DNA of 35,108 bases. Source: Bryobacterales bacterium (GTDB taxonomy: Bacteria > Acidobacteriota > Terriglobia > Bryobacterales > UBA6623). The position numbers and the translations under genes are program-made. Below the pieces are notes generated by a model. It was given only the letters and a program-made list of their open reading frames with translations. It did not search any database and was not told the DNA's origin. Location: the NCBI GenBank assembly GCA_028819575.1, contig JAPPLB010000033.1:1-35108 (forward strand). The letters run 5' to 3'. Shown in pieces: positions 3,350 through 32,577 of this stretch (position 1 is the first letter of the stretch; the number at the start of each line of letters is the position of its first letter).

Positions 3350-4819
3350 TCAGAACTTGCGCGACCATTCCTGGGGCCAGCGCTCGATGACGACTTTCTT
3401 GTCGGTGTAGAACTCGACGGAGTCGCGCCCCTGGCCGTGCAGGGCTCCGAGGAAGCTGTCCTTCCATCCGCTGAAGGGGAAATAGGCCATCGGCGCGGCT
3501 ACGCCGATATTCACGCCCACGTTTCCGGTCGGCGCCTGATAACGAAATTTGCGGGCGGCCGCTCCGCTGGACGTGAAGATCGACGAGGCGTTCCCGTAGG
3601 GGTTGCGCGCGACGATACCGATGGCCTCGTCCACCGAGGCGGCATGCGTGAGGCTGAGCACGGGACCGAAGATCTCCGTCGAGGAAAGCGGCCCGCCGGG
3701 CGCCACGCCGTCGAGCACGGTCGGGCGGATGAAGTGACCGCCTTCGAGGCCGTTGACTCGCGCCCCCCGGCCGTCGAGTACCGCCCGCGCGCCCTGCCGG
3801 GTCCCGGTTTCCACGGCAGCTTCGATGCGAGCCTTGCTTTCGCGCGTGATGACCGGCCCCATTCCAACGCCGTCGTCAAGGCCGGAACCCACCTGGATCA
3901 AACCCGCCGCTTCAACGATCGCGTCGCGAAAAGTTTTCCGCGCCTCGCCCACCGTAACGGCAACGGACACGGCCAGGCAGCGCTGGCCGGCGCAACCGAA
4001 CGCGCTGTCGCTCACGATTTGCGTCGTCGCTTCCATATCCGCGTCGGGCAGCACGACGACATGGTTCTTCGCGCCGCCCTGGCACTGCACACGCTTGCCG
4101 CTTTGCGCGGCGCGGGCGTAGACGTACTTCGCCACCGGTGTCGAACCGACGAAACTGATCGCTCGGACATCGGGATGGTCAAGCAGGGCATCGACGGCCG
4201 GTTTGCCTCCGTTGACAAGATTGAGGACTCCGGAGGGGAGGTCGAGCCGCTCGATCAATCCGAAGAACTTCTGCATCGTCAGTGGAACTTTCTCAGAAGG
4301 CTTGACGATCATCGTATTGCCGCAGGCGACGGCGTACGGCAGGAACCACAACGGAATCATCGCCGGGAAGTTGAAAGGCGTGATCGCCGCTACGACTCCG
4401 AGCGGCTGCCGGATCATGATTTCGTCGATCCCGCGGGCGACATCTTCGAGGTTGTAGCCCTGCATCAGCGTCGGGATGCCGCAAGCGACCTCCACGTTTT
4501 CGATGCCTCGCCGTAGTTCGCCTTTCGATTCGGCCAGCGTTTTGCCGTTTTCGACCGTGATCGTGCGGGCCAACTCGTCGAGGTTGTCCTCGAGAAGCTG
4601 CTTCAGGCGAAACAGGTATTGGATGCGATCTTCGGGAGGCGTCTGTCTCCAGTCGGGGAATGCCTGCGACGCCGCCTGCACGGCGCGATGGACTTCCTCA
4701 GCGCCGTCCAAGTGAACATGGGCCAGGACTTCGGCCGTCGCCGGATTGATGACGTTACTGAACTCATGCGCGGACACAGCCGTCCATTGCCCGCCGATGA
4801 AGTTGGGAACTGATTCCAT
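3350..4819 (-). CDS. mmsA: Methylmalonate-semialdehyde dehydrogenase, CoA-acylating
   Basis: NAD-dependent aldehyde dehydrogenase that converts methylmalonate semialdehyde, and malonate semialdehyde, to propionyl-CoA or acetyl-CoA in valine and myo-inositol breakdown. The 489-aa protein shows the ALDH fold: ITPFNFP near residue 146, FVGST at 223-227, the glycine loop QGGAKNH at 247-253, and the catalytic cysteine C281 in CAGQRC. The segment [14 protein letters not shown] followed by LHGQG is diagnostic of the MMSDH subfamily rather than of general ALDHs. Start chosen at the ATG at 4819, which gives the family N-terminus (NFIGGQW near residue 6). The roughly 1 kb upstream holds a structured inverted repeat at 4954-5036 that could lie in its leader. 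No partner valine-degradation genes are adjacent. Confidence 0.93.
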
Positions 4820-5429: not shown

Positions 5430-5794
5430 CAAGTAACTTCGACTGTTCATGTAGAGGTCATGGCCAAGTTGTTAAATACGCAATGTTGAAGAGTAACAAG
5501 GCATGTTCGCCGGCCCTGGGGAGGAGAAGCAGCTCGGCGGCGCCTGGCCAGCCCATCCCGGATTTGCGCGCAGAAACCTGCCTTGGCCTCAAGGATCGCC
5601 GTGCGGAACTGCCCGAATCACTACCTGGCTCCTTCAGCAAACCGGTGCCTGCGCTGAACGTTCCCGGTTGGATGGTTCAGGAGGATCCCGATGATGCAGT
5701 CCTGACCGATGCGACTGACCGTAACGGAGAAATCAACTTCTGTCCCGGTTCGAAGATCTTCCTCTACGACCGGCTGGGACTGTCGGCTCAATAG
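5411..5794 (+). pseudogene. Possible cas3 C-terminal remnant
   Basis: An open frame runs from just after a stop at 5408-5410 to a TGA-free tail ending at 5794, same strand and about 125 nt upstream of casA. Its last 55 or so residues look like folded protein: ELPESLPGSF, VPGWMV, AVLTDATDRNG, and a terminal LYDRLGL. The closing pattern (aromatic-Asp, then LGL just before the stop) and the position immediately 5' of casA are what the C-terminal accessory domain of a Cas3 helicase-nuclease would give. There are no HD or helicase motifs anywhere upstream. The first 60 or so residues look non-coding. The family assignment rests on pattern and position, not on a search. Confidence 0.35.
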
Positions 5795-5919
5795 CTCTTG
5801 ACACATTACATTCACAAGCCTCTGGCCGCATGCCGTCCTGCTGATTGCGTGACTGACCGGTCGTGAGGGAACACAAAGCCTCGCAGCCGCGACACAAAAG
5901 AGAAGAGGACGCAACGGAC

Positions 5920-7467
5920 ATGTTCGACTTGTTGATCGAACGGATCGTGCCGGTTCAAACCGGCGGTGACGGGATGATGCTGACGCTGCCCGGACTCTTC
6001 AGCCAGCTTGGCCGGGATGCCATCGACGGCTTCCCCGGCTTGGCCGCCCATCAAGCGCAAGCGTGGTACCAATTCCTGGCTCAGCTCGGAGCACTTGCGC
6101 TGCACCGGGGACACCTGCGTGAACCGCCGGAAGATCCCGATGCCTGGCGGAGGCTGCTGGCCGACCTCACTCCGAGATCCGCCGCCACCTCCTGGAGTCT
6201 GATGGTCGAGAACCCGACTCGTCCGGCCTTCCTGCAACCGCCGACTGGAATGCTCCATAAGTTCAAGCCTGCGGGCGAAACTCCTGACGCGCTCGATGTT
6301 CTGGTGACCGCCAAGAACCACGATCGCAAGCGCGCACAGGCAATCCACGGCGATCCGCACCTCTGGCTCTACGCCTTGATCACGTTGCAGACGACCCAGG
6401 GATATTCCGGCAGGGGTAATCCCGGAATCGCTCGTATGAACGGAGGCCTCTCCAGCCGCGTCCTGGTGGATCGGCGTCCCGGCCCTCGTTGGGGGCCGCG
6501 GGTTGCCCGTGCAATGCGCATGCTGCTCGTGCGCCGCAGCGAGATTCTGCGGCATGTGAGTGACGACCTTTATCAATCCGAAGGTGGCTTGGCGCTGACG
6601 TGGCTCCACGAGTGGGACACTGACGCGCCGTTGCGTATGGAGGAGCTGGACCCATTCTTCATCGAGATATGCCGGCGTGTGCGGCTCACGGCTACCGGAA
6701 AGGGCCGCCTCGCGGCTCTGGCGCGGCCAGCGAAAATCCCACGGGTTGCCGCACAGGCGCTGAAAGGCAATCTCGGCGACCCATGGACACCCGTCAATCT
6801 GAGCAGGAGTGACCCATCCTCATTGACGGTCGGCGGCAACGGGTTCAACTATCGTCTGGCTCAGCAAATCCTGTTTGAGAAAAAATTGAAGAAACCACTC
6901 TCACTGAAAGCATTACCGGGAGAGAACCGCCTCGATAGCGAGCTCCACATGGCAGTCCTGGTGCGCGGCCAGGGCAAGACGCAAGGGCTGCACGAGCGGA
7001 TTATCCCTTTGCCTGAATCGGTTGCACCGTTTCTGCAATTCGATGAGGACGAACAGGGCTCGCCGCTCGCCGCTCTCTCCCCAAAAATGGTTGCTCTGGC
7101 CGTCGAGGCTCGGAAGGTTCTGTGGCAGGCAGTGCAGATCTATCTGCAAGGACCGGAACATCCGAATTTCCAGAAGCCGGACGCCGCGCCAACCATCGCC
7201 AGCTACGACCGGATGGTCGACGAGGAGTTCTTCAACTGCCTGTTCGAAGTGCCAAAGATCGGCTCGGACGAAGTGATTCATCGCTGGCAGCTATTGCTCC
7301 GGGACGAGGCGTGTCGACTCGCACGAGACGTCTGGCATAAGACAACGCCGCCGAGCATCCGTCGGGAGAAAGCTCGTGCGGCGTCGGAGGCCGTATTGTT
7401 CGCTGGACTGCGTAAGCGACTGCCTGATGCCTTTCTCGAACATGATTCCAAGGAGTATTCCACATGA
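5920..7467 (+). CDS. casA: Type I-E Cascade large subunit Cse1 (CasA/Cas8e)
   Basis: Large subunit of the type I-E Cascade effector. It recognises the PAM and recruits Cas3. The 515-aa length fits the family. The N-terminus FDLLIERIVPV matches the usual Cse1 opening. The block GNPGIARMNGGLSSR, the FLQPP motif, and DPWTPVN in the middle are Cse1 landmarks. The start is ATG 5920 with AGAGGA about 10 nt upstream; an in-frame GTG at 5863 would add 19 charged residues with no family counterpart. Its stop overlaps the casB start (ATGA). The reading frame is intact over 1.5 kb, unlike the flanking cas genes. With no cas3 in the window, its normal recruitment partner is absent locally. Confidence 0.88.
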   Translation: MFDLLIERIVPVQTGGDGMMLTLPGLFSQLGRDAIDGFPGLAAHQAQAWYQFLAQLGALALHRGHLREPPEDPDAWRRLLADLTPRSAATSWSLMVENPTRPAFLQPPTGMLHKFKPAGETPDALDVLVTAKNHDRKRAQAIHGDPHLWLYALITLQTTQGYSGRGNPGIARMNGGLSSRVLVDRRPGPRWGPRVARAMRMLLVRRSEILRHVSDDLYQSEGGLALTWLHEWDTDAPLRMEELDPFFIEICRRVRLTATGKGRLAALARPAKIPRVAAQALKGNLGDPWTPVNLSRSDPSSLTVGGNGFNYRLAQQILFEKKLKKPLSLKALPGENRLDSELHMAVLVRGQGKTQGLHERIIPLPESVAPFLQFDEDEQGSPLAALSPKMVALAVEARKVLWQAVQIYLQGPEHPNFQKPDAAPTIASYDRMVDEEFFNCLFEVPKIGSDEVIHRWQLLLRDEACRLARDVWHKTTPPSIRREKARAASEAVLFAGLRKRLPDAFLEHDSKEYST

Positions 7468-8036
7468 ACACGGACGCGGTGATTGACTCTCGTCCACTTC
7501 AGGACGGCCCCGCCGGACCTCGCGGCCTGGGCCAGGTGATCGCTACGTTATCGCGGCAATTGAATGCCGAGAGGATCGGTGTTGGAGCATTGGCCGAGCT
7601 TCGCCGCATGACGGGCAACGATCTGCCCTCAGCGTTCTGGAAGCGGTACCTGTGCGACGTGCCCGTGGAATGGCGTGAACCTCGCGATCACGTCGATGCA
7701 CGCGTCGATCGGGCATGGGCCGCACTCATTCGAGCGATGGTCGAGATGGCGCCCAACCCGCACTCGTTCGATCAACCGTTCGGGGCTGCCCTCGCTAAGA
7801 CACGTTATTCCGAATACCGCTTCGTCAGATTGTTGCGCGCCGAAGGCGAAGACTTGGCTCGCGAACTTCGCATCGCCGGCTCATGGCTTGCCCGGGCTGG
7901 CGCCAAGGCTGACTGGGAACGGCCGGCACACCTGTCGCTCAGGGGTTTCGGGCTGAATGTCAACGCCCAGATCGCCAGACACCGAATGGCGCGGGACTAC
8001 TTCCGTGCCCCAACCCAACGATCATCGCACCAATAA
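7464..8036 (+). CDS. casB: Type I-E Cascade small subunit Cse2 (CasB)
   Basis: Small, arginine-rich helical subunit that forms the belly dimer of Cascade and stabilises the R-loop. It is 190 aa, within the family range. Recognition rests on position, size, and motifs such as the ALAELRRM segment, RYSEYRFVRLLRAEGEDL and a basic C-terminal helix. The start overlaps the casA stop by four bases (ATGA), so translation is probably coupled. Cse2 is poorly conserved, so the name depends partly on context between casA and casC. Confidence 0.85.
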   Translation: MNTDAVIDSRPLQDGPAGPRGLGQVIATLSRQLNAERIGVGALAELRRMTGNDLPSAFWKRYLCDVPVEWREPRDHVDARVDRAWAALIRAMVEMAPNPHSFDQPFGAALAKTRYSEYRFVRLLRAEGEDLARELRIAGSWLARAGAKADWERPAHLSLRGFGLNVNAQIARHRMARDYFRAPTQRSSHQ

Positions 8037-8049
8037 GGAGATCACGATC

Positions 8050-9219
8050 ATGAGAGAAAGATTTCTCCAACTCCACACCCTCACCGGATACTCCGCGACG
8101 TTGCTGAACCGCGACGATGTCGGTCGCGCCAAGCGCCTGCCGTTCGGAGGCCATGATCGCATCCGCGTGTCGTCGCAGTGTCTCAAGCGGCACTGGCGGG
8201 AGGCGACAGGTGAGTGGTCATTGCGAGAACTGGGCAACGGTAAGTCCACTCGTTCCCGGCGGGTTTTCAGCGACGTCATTGCCGGCCGGCTCCGGGAACG
8301 AGGACTCTCGGAGAAGCAGATCGTCAATGTCCTCATGCCGATCCGGCTCGCAGTGCTCGGCGAGAGCATCAAAGCGAAGCAGGCACGCCAGGAGAAATCG
8401 GTCGAGGGCACTAAACCTCTCACCAGCTTGCACACGGATCAGATTATCGTCCTGGGAGAGCCTGAGATCGCCTTCCTTACGAACCTTGCAGCGGAGCTTG
8501 TCAAAGACGACGCCGAGGGGACGGCCAAAGCCGTCGATGCCTACTTCAGGGACAAGGCGAAAAAAGCGAATCTGAAGGCTTTGGTGATGGGTTCCGGCCT
8601 GGATGCCGCGATCTTCGGGCGCATGGTGACCTCGGACCTCATGGCGCGCAGCGACGCGGCGGTCCACGTTGCACACAGCTTCACTGTGCATGCCGAAGAG
8701 GCTGAGCCGGACTACTTCTCGGCGCTCGACGATCTGGTTGCCGCCGAAGGTGAGCTCGGCTCCGCTCATATCAACACAAGCGAGTTGACCAGCGGGCTGT
8801 TCTACACCTATGTCGTCGTTGATATACACCAACTCGTCGCTAATCTGTCCAGCGACCGCGCACTTGCGGAGGAGGTCATTCGTCGGCTGGTTCATCTGAT
8901 TGCGACAGTCTCCCCCGGCGCGAAGCTGGGAGCTACAGCTCCCTACGCCTGTGCCGAAATGATGTTGGCGGAGAGCGGTGCCCGTCAGCCGCGTACGCTG
9001 GCGAATGCCTTCATGAGCCCGGTATCGAAACAGGGTGCGAAGGAGAAAGCCTCTGTCGCCATCAGCAAGTATCTTGGCCGCTATGACGCCGTGTACGGCA
9101 CGCACGAGAGGCGGAAGGTTGCAACCATGATCGAGCCGGCTCCGGAACACACAGGCGAGAGAGTAACCATGGCTGCGCTCGCACAATGGGCGGCCGACCA
9201 AGTGGGAGGGGCAAGCTGA
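8050..9219 (+). CDS. casC: Type I-E Cascade backbone Cas7e (CasC/Cse4)
   Basis: Backbone subunit that polymerises along the crRNA spacer. The 389-aa product opens with the diagnostic FLQLHTLTGYSATLLNRDD, then AKRLPFGG and RVSSQCLKRHWR. It contains the Cas7 middle block with ELTSGLFYTYVVVD and closes with the PGAKLGATAPYACAEMML segment. The start is ATG 8050, preceded by AAGGAGAT at 8 nt spacing. An upstream in-frame ATG (7957) would lie inside casB and lacks a ribosome site. Its stop overlaps the casD start by one base (TGATG). Confidence 0.95.
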   Translation: MRERFLQLHTLTGYSATLLNRDDVGRAKRLPFGGHDRIRVSSQCLKRHWREATGEWSLRELGNGKSTRSRRVFSDVIAGRLRERGLSEKQIVNVLMPIRLAVLGESIKAKQARQEKSVEGTKPLTSLHTDQIIVLGEPEIAFLTNLAAELVKDDAEGTAKAVDAYFRDKAKKANLKALVMGSGLDAAIFGRMVTSDLMARSDAAVHVAHSFTVHAEEAEPDYFSALDDLVAAEGELGSAHINTSELTSGLFYTYVVVDIHQLVANLSSDRALAEEVIRRLVHLIATVSPGAKLGATAPYACAEMMLAESGARQPRTLANAFMSPVSKQGAKEKASVAISKYLGRYDAVYGTHERRKVATMIEPAPEHTGERVTMAALAQWAADQVGGAS

Positions 9220-10037
9220 TGCAGGCGCTGATTCTTCATCTCCAAGCGCCGCTCATGAGCTTCGGCGGCCCCCAGGTGGATCAGATCGGACCGACGGGAC
9301 GATTCCCGACGATGAGTCAGATCACCGGCATGTTCGCAAACGCGCTCGGCTGCGCGCATGGCGACTTCGGCCTGCTGGAAGCCTTGCAAGCACGTTTGTC
9401 AATCGCCAGCGCTCTTGTGCGCGAAGGTGAAGAGTTGCAGGACTACCAGACCGTGGATCTCGGCCAAGCACATCTGCGCAACCCCTCATGGACGACACGG
9501 GGAAGCAGCGAGCATCGGGAAGGTGGACTGGAGGCGCGGCACGGTACCCATATCCGTTTCCGCCGATACCGCGCGGACGCCAGCGTGCTGAGTTCGATAT
9601 CGCTGTCGCCTGCGGATGAGAAGCCAACGCTGAACGACATTGGAAACGCGTTGATTGCGCCCGCGCGGCCGCTGTTCATCGGGCGTAAACCCTGCCTGCC
9701 ATCAACACGGCTGCTCGTCGGCATCATCGCAGATGCCGACAGCCTTACAGAAGCCCTCTCTCGCGTCCCCGACACCTTTCCGGACCGCTGGACAGAGATC
9801 GCGGGCAGGAACGACAAGGTGAAGGTCATGGCCGAGTGGCCTGAAGAGAATGATCGCGCCTTGCCGTCCGATGCACGCCGTGCAACGCACCGCGTCATCG
9901 ACCGGCGAGACTGGCGAAACCAATTGCATGGCGGCGAGCGGACCGTGACGCGCGGCACACTCGTCCTGGGCCGCTTGCCTGCTCCGGCTTCTGGCGGTGC
10001 ATCATGGCCGACTTGCACCTTGTCCGCCTGCCGTTGA
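9219..10037 (+). CDS. casD: Type I-E Cascade subunit Cas5e (CasD)
   Basis: Binds the 5' handle of the crRNA and caps the Cas7 filament. The 272-aa product starts MQALILHLQAPLMSFGGP, the usual Cas5 ferredoxin-like first strand and glycine loop. FPTMSQITGMFANALG follows, as typical of Cas5e. The segment RPLFIGRKPCLP near the middle is another Cas5e hallmark. The start at 9219 overlaps the casC stop and follows GGGAGGGG. Its 3' end overlaps casE by 34 nt. The frame is intact. Confidence 0.93.
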   Translation: MQALILHLQAPLMSFGGPQVDQIGPTGRFPTMSQITGMFANALGCAHGDFGLLEALQARLSIASALVREGEELQDYQTVDLGQAHLRNPSWTTRGSSEHREGGLEARHGTHIRFRRYRADASVLSSISLSPADEKPTLNDIGNALIAPARPLFIGRKPCLPSTRLLVGIIADADSLTEALSRVPDTFPDRWTEIAGRNDKVKVMAEWPEENDRALPSDARRATHRVIDRRDWRNQLHGGERTVTRGTLVLGRLPAPASGGASWPTCTLSACR

Positions 10038-10864
10038 ATCTCCGCGAGTTCACTGCCTGGGCGCTAGGTCGCCGCTACCTGGACACGCCTCCCGGCGATG
10101 GCCGTGGGCGTCCGCGGGACGCCGAGATGGGATACGCCCTGCACGCGGCCCTGAGCGGCCTCTTCGGCGTGCAGTCACCGCGTCCGTTCGCCATTCCGCT
10201 TGCGAGCCGGCACGAGCGCCAGCGGGCAGCCGCAGCATCGGGTTCCCCTGGCGGCATGCTCGACCTGCTCGGCTACACACGCGCACCCCTCGAAACTCTT
10301 CGATCACTCGTCCAATTCGCTGACGACGAACTGCGCACCACAGTCAACTGGGAAGGTGCGCGGTCCAAGCCAATGCCCTCCCGCTGGCCGAAGAATTTGA
10401 GGCTCCGCTTCGACCTCCGGGCCTGCCCGGTACGGCGGATCATGAAACCGCTCACGACTCGCGAGTACCTCAAACTGCAGCCAACGACGTTCTGCAAAGG
10501 GAGGGAACTGGACGCCTTCCAGGTAGCCGCCGCACGCCGGCCACCACGCAGTGAACCACCTGCCAGGGAGCAAGTCTATATCGAATGGCTCGAGGAACGG
10601 CTTGCTTCTCAGCCGGAACGGCCTCAGGCCGTAGCGTTGGTGCCGAACTCGTTACGGGTGGAGGCCTACCGCTCGGTCCGCCTGTTGCGCCGCCCGCGGG
10701 GGGAGAATGGGCGACGCGCCCCTCAATGGCTCACGCGCCCGGACGTCCACTTTACGGGTTTGTTGGACATCACCAGCCCGGATACCTTTTCGGACCTGCT
10801 CGCGAGGGGCGTTGGCCGCCATTGCGGCTTCGGTTTCGGCATGCTGCTCCTCAAGCCGGCGTGA
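10004..10864 (+). CDS. casE: CRISPR pre-crRNA endonuclease Cas6e (CasE)
   Basis: Cleaves pre-crRNA at the base of each repeat hairpin and stays bound to the 3' stem. It is 286 aa. MGYALHAALSGLFG near residues 42-55 carries the Tyr/His pair (Y44, H47) expected for catalysis. The C-terminal glycine-rich loop GVGRHCGFGFGMLLLKP is the Cas6e signature. Both RAMP halves are present. It overlaps casD by 34 nt. Since three of the four repeats keep an intact 6-bp stem, its substrate still exists in this locus. Confidence 0.93.
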   Translation: MADLHLVRLPLNLREFTAWALGRRYLDTPPGDGRGRPRDAEMGYALHAALSGLFGVQSPRPFAIPLASRHERQRAAAASGSPGGMLDLLGYTRAPLETLRSLVQFADDELRTTVNWEGARSKPMPSRWPKNLRLRFDLRACPVRRIMKPLTTREYLKLQPTTFCKGRELDAFQVAAARRPPRSEPPAREQVYIEWLEERLASQPERPQAVALVPNSLRVEAYRSVRLLRRPRGENGRRAPQWLTRPDVHFTGLLDITSPDTFSDLLARGVGRHCGFGFGMLLLKPA

Positions 10865-10889: not shown

Positions 10890-11448
10890 ATGATGCTCCC
10901 GGATCGTCTCGGACTCGAGACCGCTCGTATAGCACATGCCGATCGCCACTGCCTGGTATGGCTCTCCCGTGGCCGCTTGTCGGTAGTAAACGGCACACTC
11001 TGCTTCCAGACGGCCGGGGGAAGAGACCTTGAACCGGGTGTCTACACCATTGAGTTCCAGATGGTGTCGATTCTGCTGCTCGGGCCGGGCGGCACAGTGA
11101 GCCATGACGTGCTTCGATCCTTCACCCGTCACGGTACCTGCCTGATCGTGGTGGGTGAAGACGGCGTGCGGGCCTGCGCCGCGCCGCCGCTCACGCCCTG
11201 CCATTCCGCAGCCGCCCGCCTGCAGGCAATGCTATGGGCTGACTCGGCGAAGCGACTCGCTCTTGCTCACCGCATGTATGCCCCGCGATTGGGTGAAGTA
11301 CTTCCCAACCGCAAACTGGCAGCGCCCCGGGGCATCGAGGGAGTGCTCTATCCGACGATCGCTCAGCAGCACGGCGTAATGTGGAAAGGCCGCCGTTACG
11401 ATCGCGCCAACCCTGACGCAACCGTCTTGCCGAACCATGCGATCAATC
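10890..11448 (+). pseudogene. cas1: cas1 (type I-E integrase), truncated by internal deletion
   Basis: The first 186 codons of a Cas1e. ATG at 10890 is preceded by AGAGGA and lies 25 nt after casE. LLLGPGGTVSH, VVGEDGVR, PRGIEG and WKGRRYD align with E. coli Cas1. The Glu of RGIEG (equivalent to E141) remains. The frame reaches PNHAINHA, where Cas1e proteins should continue for over 100 residues with the catalytic His and Asp (equivalents of H208 and D221). Here it meets cas2 sequence in another frame. The same frame stays open through the CRISPR repeats to 11948, which is an artefact. Integration activity is not possible without the missing half. Confidence 0.88.
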
Positions 11449-11685
11449 ATGCTCGAGATCGCACCGGGGGCCTACTCTCAACCCCACATGCCTTCGTCCG
11501 TCCGCGAGCGTGTGTGGGACAGGCTGACCGGCTGGCTGTCTCACTACGGCCAGGGATCGGTCGTCATGACCTGGGCTGCACCAAACATGCCGCAGCGCTA
11601 AGGCGTCTTGCTGCCGGGAGAGCCCTCAAGGAATTTGGTCGAGTACGACGGACGATTCATTGTCAGGCGAGAGCTGCCGCCCTGA
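11449..11685 (+). pseudogene. cas2: cas2 (type I-E), 5'-deleted remnant with an internal stop
   Basis: In the frame starting at 11449 the sequence reads MLEIAPGAYSQPHM, then SSVRERVWDRLTGWL, GQGSVVMTWAAPNM, and finally EPSRNLVEYDGRFIVRREL before a TGA at 11683-11685. This matches Cas2e from its second strand (the LLEVRAGVY region) to its end. The first 20 or so residues are missing. A TAA at 11599-11601 interrupts the frame; the codon would read CAA with one change. The junction with cas1 lies at about 11445-11451. Together with the cas1 truncation this implies one deletion of roughly 0.4 kb, estimated from usual family lengths. Confidence 0.85.
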
Positions 11686-11706
11686 AGATCTTCACCTCTT
11701 GTTTGG

Positions 11707-11916
11707 AGTTTCCCCGCAGTCGCGGGGATGGACCTGCTGGACGGAGTTGGACAGACAATCGTGTCGGGTTTGCCCCGCAGGTGCGGGGATGGACCTATAG
11801 TGTACCCTGCTGTTGCATGCTTGTTATTGTTTTCCCCGCAGGCGCGGGGATGGACCGTCATCCCATTCATTGTCAAAGGGTACGGACGCGTTTTCCCGCA
11901 GGCGCAGGGATGGACC
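11707..11916 (+). CRISPR. Four-repeat type I-E CRISPR array
   Basis: Repeats at 11707-11734, 11768-11795, 11829-11856 and 11890-11916, with an exact 61-nt period and three 33-nt spacers. The best copy (third) is GTTTTCCCCGCAGG followed by CGCGGGGATGGACC. The first differs at the 5' end and one loop base, the second at two bases, and the last has lost a C and has G-to-A in the stem. The stem CCCCGC/GCGGGG is intact in repeats 1-3; their internal differences fall in the 4-nt loop. By analogy with E. coli the plus strand is the crRNA sense, with an AUGGACC handle. Only 21 nt separate the cas2 remnant from repeat 1, so a normal AT-rich leader is missing. Confidence 0.95.
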
Positions 11917-12259: not shown

Positions 12260-13270
12260 TCACAAGGGGTCAGCAAGAAGGTGAGGGTGCTGATTCTCAT
12301 CACTTCGGATCTCAAGGACGACGCCTCCAGGGAGTAGTCGAAGCCCCAGACCTACCACCAAGCCTCGATTCATGCTTTTCGCTGGATACTGACTACCTGG
12401 AGACTTGAGCCTGGAGAGTGGTTTTGAGGGGTCCTTTTCAGGTCTCGTCCCCGTCGCCGTGTCCGTCGCCGTCACCGTCGCTGAGGTCCCCGATACTGTC
12501 AGGCTCACCGTGAAGGTCTCGTCTTCTTCCGTCACCTCATCCTCGACGGTCTCGACCGTGAAGCTCTGCGTCCCAGTGAAGGTGAGCGCTGCCGTGTTCT
12601 CGCTGTAGTCAGTGCCCTTCTCCGCCGTGCCGTCGGTGAACGAAGGCGTCACCGTCAGCCCGCCCGATACGGCCTTGTCCAGCGTCACGGTGAACGTGAT
12701 CGGGTCGCCCTCGCCAGCCGACGCGTCGGCGATCGTCACGGCTGGCGGAGCCGGCGGGGTCACCGTGATCGTGAACGTCGCCGTCACCGCCTCGTTTACC
12801 CCGTCGTCCGCCGAGATCGTCACGGTGTAGATCTTCGCCGCCACGTCCGCCGCCACCGTGCCCTGCACCTGGTCGTTTGCATACGACAATCCCGACGGCA
12901 GGCCCGACAGCGTCACCGTCAGCGGGTCGCTGTCCGCGTCCGTCGCCGTGATGCCGAACGCCGTGATCGCCTCGCCCTGCTCGTAGGTCTTGTCGCCGGG
13001 GTCGGTGATCACCGGCGGCGCGTTGGGTGAGGCCGGCTCCGCCCGCACCGAAAACCGTTTCGCCGGCATGTTGGGGTTGCCCGTTGCATCCATAGCCACG
13101 TGCGCGGCCACGTCGACCGTCACGGTCCCGGCGCCCGCCGGCGCGATCGTCGCCGTGTAGCTCCGCCCCGAACCGGAAAAGGCCGTCACCGAGCCGTTGC
13201 TCACGGTCACGTCCCCCTGCTCGAAGCCCGTCATCGGCTCCGAGAAGTCGAAGCTCACGTCAAATGGCCC
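12260..13270 (-). pseudogene. Fragment of a repeat-domain surface protein (Ig-like, cadherin-like, Calx-beta)
   Basis: Three extracellular-type domains are recognisable. An Ig-like unit (FDVSFDFSEPMTGFEQGDV, about 13270-13022) comes first, then a cadherin/putative-Ig unit (DADSDPLTVTLSGLPSGL, about 13021-12743). A Calx-beta unit (ASAGEGDPITFTVTLDKAV and EEDETFTVSL, about 12742-12448) is last. The domain-like reading begins abruptly at GPFDV with no start or signal peptide. It ends after TATDTATGT in a tail with no domain character. Upstream sequence (13271-13547) has no continuing frame with the same character. Such domains are found in large secreted adhesin-like proteins; here only a middle slice is left, so I call it a fragment and not a gene. 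Confidence 0.65.
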
Positions 13271-32535: not shown

Positions 32536-32577
32536 GTTAGCCTGCATTCTCATCACGTGGTGAGAAATGCAGGTTAG
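32536..32577. repeat. Palindromic variant of the dispersed repeat
   Basis: TTAGCCTGCATT, then CTCATCACG, is followed by TGGTGAGAAATGCAGGTTAG. The right half equals the GTGAGAAATGCAGG half of the end copies. The left half is its near-perfect inverse, so this copy is two right halves head to head around CACGTG. It sits between the divergent amidohydrolase and acyl-CoA synthetase genes, close to both promoters. Confidence 0.8.

Follow-up and report, generated by a model that had tools for sequence, protein, structure and literature searches.

The window analyzed here, a 35,108-nucleotide stretch that forms the whole of contig C73 in the draft genome of an uncultured acidobacterium (5.37 Mb, 200 contigs, 98.7% complete), carries a type I-E CRISPR-Cas locus, a known kind of system, in a degenerate state, and comparison with related loci makes a particular course of decay highly probable. 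In this course, the deletion of cas3 came first: it predates the divergence of the window species from its congener, and both retain the same 3' remnant of the gene. In the window lineage, a single deletion of ~0.35 kb then joined cas1 to cas2 in different reading frames; the congener lost cas1-cas2 through a separate, larger deletion, and the five Cascade genes stayed open under purifying selection. Broken CRISPR loci are common, and the junction by itself is ordinary; the interest lies in the proposed order, with the nuclease lost first, the memory genes lost twice independently, and the DNA-binding complex maintained by selection. Should this order be confirmed, it would provide a natural, testable case, with a relative time order, of a Cascade that is useful without cutting.

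Gene content of the locus

From left to right, the window contains uvrA and a methylmalonate-semialdehyde dehydrogenase gene (mmsdh), both on the minus strand, followed on the plus strand by cas8e-cas11-cas7e-cas5e-cas6e, a part of cas1, a part of cas2, and four type I-E repeats. The features of the locus are given below, where G011 is a genome from another genus of the same family.

5483..5794, plus strand: cas3 3' stump, a 103-codon ORF in which the final ~80 codons correspond to the C-terminal end of G011 Cas3
5863..7467, plus strand: cas8e (cse1), TIGR02547 over its full length at 69.6 bits (cut-off 70.05), 61% identical to G011 Cas8e
7464..8036, plus strand: cas11 (cse2), TIGR02548 above cut-off
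7957..9219, plus strand: cas7e, coding probably from 8044, TIGR01869 E 2.6e-85, PF09344 E 2.4e-92
9186..10037, plus strand: cas5e, TIGR01868 E 9.1e-43
10004..10864, plus strand: cas6e, PF08798 at 91 bits (cut-off 25), TIGR01907 at 41.2 bits, under the 45.2 cut-off
10890..11453, plus strand: cas1 remnant, N-terminal ~187 codons, 63% identical to G011 Cas1
11448..11452, plus strand: deletion junction, where CATGC fits both sides
11449..11682, plus strand: cas2 remnant, first 22 codons missing by G011 numbering, in two pieces 66% and 59% identical to G011 Cas2
11706..11916, plus strand: type I-E array of four repeats with spacings of 61, 61, and 60 nt, divergent loops, and a damaged stem in R4

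Profile searches recovered the type I-E effector set (cas8e, cas11, cas7e, cas5e, and cas6e), with Cas8e and Cas6e scoring just below their NCBIfam cut-offs, the former aligned over its full length and the latter above the Pfam cut-off. Type I-E further requires complete Cas1e and Cas2e, which the locus lacks, and a Cas3 helicase-nuclease, of which a C-terminal stump of ~80 aa alone is left; a I-E repeat array with a period of ~61 nt is present, in the form of four divergent repeats. Intact type I-E loci of the family (G011, contig C126; G006, contig C1) have the same order, cas8e-cas11-cas7e-cas5e-cas6e-cas1-cas2-array, and the same repeat type, and the window proteins are 53–70% identical to those of the G011 locus, with lower identity to those of G006. 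Whereas both relatives possess full cas3, cas1, and cas2 genes and long arrays of near-identical repeats, the window retains remnants of these genes and its four divergent repeats.

A dispersed intergenic repeat of ~54 nt lies at both contig ends (39-92 and 35055-35108) and near the right end (32549-32577), with similar copies in another contig of the same genome (L033); contig C73 probably breaks at its ends because of these copies.

The cas1-cas2 junction

A preliminary description of this DNA had interpreted the region around 11445-11451 as a deletion junction that leaves Cas1 out of frame with Cas2, and both the reading frames and the profile matches bear out these coordinates. From ATG 10890, the cas1 frame reads ...DRANPDATVLPNHAINHA, with PNHAINHA at 11430-11453 and its final 'NHA' at 11445-11453. 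The cas2 frame, which is +1 relative to cas1, starts with 'MLEIAPGAY' at 11449 and reads MLEIAPGAYSQPHMPSSVRERVWDRLTGWLSHYGQGSVVMTWAAPNMPQR followed by a stop. The cas1 remnant covers positions 3-179 of the 269 in TIGR03638 (Cas1e; E 5.7e-40) and the cas2 remnant positions 21-63 of the 87 in TIGR01873 (Cas2e; E 9.3e-11), both far beyond chance. The cas2 remnant is itself broken by a TAA at 11599-11601, with further Cas2 remnant up to 11682.

At the corresponding place, G011 and G006 carry complete, overlapping cas1-cas2 genes, and in comparison with them a single internal block is gone from the window: Cas1 ends at 'NHA', and Cas2 picks up at 'C-MLEIAPG'. The closest intact pair, that of G011 (Cas1 63% and Cas2 66% identical), served as the reference for the breakpoints. 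Its cas1 side reads GCGATCAACCACGCC and its cas2 side TCCTGCATGCTCGAGATCGC, and the window junction reads GCGATCAATCATGCTCGAGATCGC. The missing block amounts to 351 bp when measured on G011 (L002: CACGC 2068-2072 to CATGC 2419-2423) and to 380 bp when measured on G006 (L003); the preliminary description had expected ~0.4 kb, not far from either value. With both breakpoints mapped, the alignment to the intact pairs supports the deletion reading.

The lost stretch had also been expected to hold two active-site residues of Cas1 and the start of Cas2. The catalytic residues of Cas1 are His and Asp, together with Glu. When G011 Cas1 is aligned with the E. coli Cas1 structures, His and Asp fall past residue 193, inside the missing block, which takes away Cas1 from ~residue 194 of 296 (the last 35%); on the other side, the first 22 Cas2 codons are absent relative to G011, so that both expectations hold. 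An additional in-frame loss of a few codons is visible in the alignment beside the catalytic Glu, which is itself retained. The missing 105-aa part of Cas1 has no counterpart anywhere else in the 98.7%-complete genome, which also gave no PF01867 match, and a second Cas1 was not found in it.

The short matching text noticed earlier at the junction corresponds to CATGC (11448-11452), where the deletion may have arisen via microhomology-mediated slippage or end joining. Slippage at this site is plausible yet unproven, as the match is 5 bp long and the idea assumes that the ancestral cas1 side read CATGC where G011 has CACGC. The junction is one lesion among several, others being the cas2 stop and the cas3 loss, and at least one of these is older. 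The preliminary description had mentioned neither of these two, nor the open cas1 frame beyond the junction. Since all 187 codons of the cas1 remnant are free of stops, the loss of cas1 may be recent.

A misassembly, with separate contigs or strains joined at 11448-11452 or the block collapsed, is a very unlikely source of the junction. The assembly is a draft of 200 contigs with dispersed repeats at contig ends, which would favor such an error; however, a 5-bp overlap is probably too short to drive a join, given that assemblers use far longer words, and the missing block occurs on no other contig. Moreover, Cas2 carries an independent stop codon, and the congener, assembled separately, is likewise without an intact cas1-cas2 pair. 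It is hardly credible that the shortened Cas1 is a new functional protein, even though its frame stays open past the junction and on through the entire array as far as 11948 (352 codons from ATG 10890): past codon 187 it consists of out-of-frame cas2 and array sequence, it lacks the catalytic His and Asp, residues conserved among the relatives are altered in it, and the congener does not have it.

Loss of cas3 and selection on Cascade

G011 and G006 carry cas3 upstream of cas8e, where the window has the stump alone. The stump aligns to residues 885-964 of G011 Cas3 with 51% identity over 80 aa (tblastn, E 6.6e-16) and is the only Cas3 match in the genome, in which no second full array and no spare cas1 or cas3 were found. 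The congener G002 (MAG Bryobacterales bacterium APA_bin_29, JAPOOG010000088.1) possesses the same locus, with Cascade proteins 90–95% identical and an orthologous cas3 stump in the same place (L016 11016-11249). The presence of the same stump in both species places the loss of cas3 ahead of their divergence. The cas1-cas2 deletion of G002 differs, in contrast, from that of the window and is larger: cas1 homology stops after ~37-41 codons, the alignment resumes at window position 11662, and one repeat remains there versus four here. The different breakpoints indicate that cas1-cas2 was lost in separate events in the two lineages. In G001, a third genome of the genus, no Cas8e could be detected.

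All five Cascade frames are open in both species, with 0 stops and 0 frameshifts. Between the window species and G002, the dN/dS values of the five genes were 0.31, 0.27, 0.27, 0.21, and 0.27. Synonymous divergence of the Cascade genes (dS 0.12-0.16) is similar to that of the flanking uvrA and mmsdh (0.14-0.17), which suggests that the locus was inherited and diverged with the chromosome. The dN/dS values of uvrA and mmsdh are 0.09-0.10, those of Cascade being ~3 times higher, and Cascade constraint is relaxed relative to these flanking housekeeping genes. A neutral simulation gave a mean of 9.9 expected stops per lineage in Cascade, and none of the 500 runs was stop-free. Nonsynonymous changes were 3.8-fold commoner in the cas1 remnant (10 of 81 sites) than in Cascade (134 of 3769 sites; p = 0.0008), the between-species comparison of cas1 covering 37 codons only. 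Together, the dN/dS values and the simulation show that all five Cascade genes were kept under purifying selection. Given that cas3 was already gone before the split, most of this selection would have acted on Cascade without Cas3. In G002, which is down to one repeat, Cascade may be past such selection and is possibly useless.

Possible use of Cascade without cutting

Judging by its gene content, we infer that the locus can neither acquire spacers nor degrade DNA any longer. Cascade may have persisted, at any rate until recently, because it binds DNA under RNA guidance and does not cut it, as in the repression of a target promoter; on its own, this regulatory role is less likely than not. The competing explanation, in which the operon as a whole has died and too little time has passed for Cascade to break as well, is possible but falls short of probable. 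Such an end would fit the breakage of cas1, cas2, and cas3 alike, the divergence of the repeats, and the reduction of the congener array to one repeat, and selection could have ended recently in both lineages; against it stand the loss of cas3 ahead of the split, the dN/dS values, and the ~10 stops due per lineage since then in the absence of selection, with none seen. In the furthest-reaching form of this idea, likewise less likely than not, selection in this genus might maintain a type I-E Cascade that lacks both Cas3 and the adaptation genes as a nuclease-free RNA-guided regulator, possibly acting through stray chromosomal repeats in a CreTA-like manner. If this were true, the effector would outlive the immune system. 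We found nothing direct in the literature on Cas3-less I-E loci.

Cascade lacking Cas3 and Cas1-Cas2 is also the layout of CAST-like, transposon-linked elements, in which Cas3 is normally absent and Cas1-Cas2 often so, and the present locus resembles them in this respect. Such an origin is nevertheless scarcely conceivable, as the cas3 stump and the cas1-cas2 remnants point to descent from an ordinary CRISPR-Cas locus, and the neighboring ORFs scanned are chromosomal genes with no transposition genes among them (Pfam scans of the larger neighboring ORFs detected no tnsB, tnsC, or tniQ beside Cascade).

Folding of the four repeats demonstrated that R1-R3 keep a stable hairpin of the Cas6e type, so that these repeats can likely still be processed by Cas6e. 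The three spacers had no long match in their own genome and none in phage records or in IMG/VR, the latter searched by exact 22-mers only. Beside the cas genes, no degenerate repeat outside the array scored close to the true repeats.

CreTA modules are Cascade-dependent toxin-antitoxin RNA pairs (PMC8501985, PMC9458426) that require Cascade and can dispense with cas1, cas2, and cas3 (PMC8501985), and they use ectopic degenerate repeats outside arrays (PMC9458426). The genomes studied here likewise have hairpins resembling the repeat at sites away from the array. Contig C44 of the window genome (L033) has two of them on the minus strand, 1.6 kb apart (4626-4649 and 6218-6241), each with at most 2 mismatches to the CRISPR repeat and outside any array; further ones are found in G002, and none was seen in G001. 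As a control, the reversed pattern yielded 0 hits in all 18 genomes. No creT gene was identified, nor any creA spacer matching a promoter or any pair of repeats lying between cas genes. Some relatives without a Cas8e match have single sites of this repeat-like kind as well, which makes the link between the hairpins and Cascade only a lead.

The first C44 hairpin adjoins an ORF resembling a RelB/DinJ antitoxin (read by eye). It is kept in G002 together with ~54 bp of upstream flank, beyond which the genomes diverge, and ~1.7 kb of the window genome is absent from G002 exactly at the repeat end of this hairpin. A dispersed element family around this ectopic repeat was considered and rejected, as the congener has one orthologous place only and the sequence is not multi-copy there.

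Several other repeat-like sites were observed among the relatives. In G011 (contig C126, L072), two degenerate repeats 124 nt apart lie just upstream of cas3 (1316-1463), possibly a second mini-array or a creA-like unit. In another genus (G016, contig C651, L069), two single I-E-like repeats form a comparable pair on the minus strand, 1.6 kb apart (1904-1927 and 3528-3551), and one leader-like sequence, GCTCGGACGGGCGAGTGCGAAC, stands ahead of each. At two unlinked congener sites (L016 16652-16668 and L041 1984-2000), CTGACTACCTGGRGAYT immediately follows a repeat-like hairpin; it also occurs at window positions 12389-12405, there without a repeat. Finally, G002 contig C136 (L042, 2000-2086) carries, as read by eye, a pair of repeat-like hairpins (CCCTGCATGCGCGGGGATGACC and CCCTGCACGCGCGGGGACGACC) spaced 61 nt from each other.
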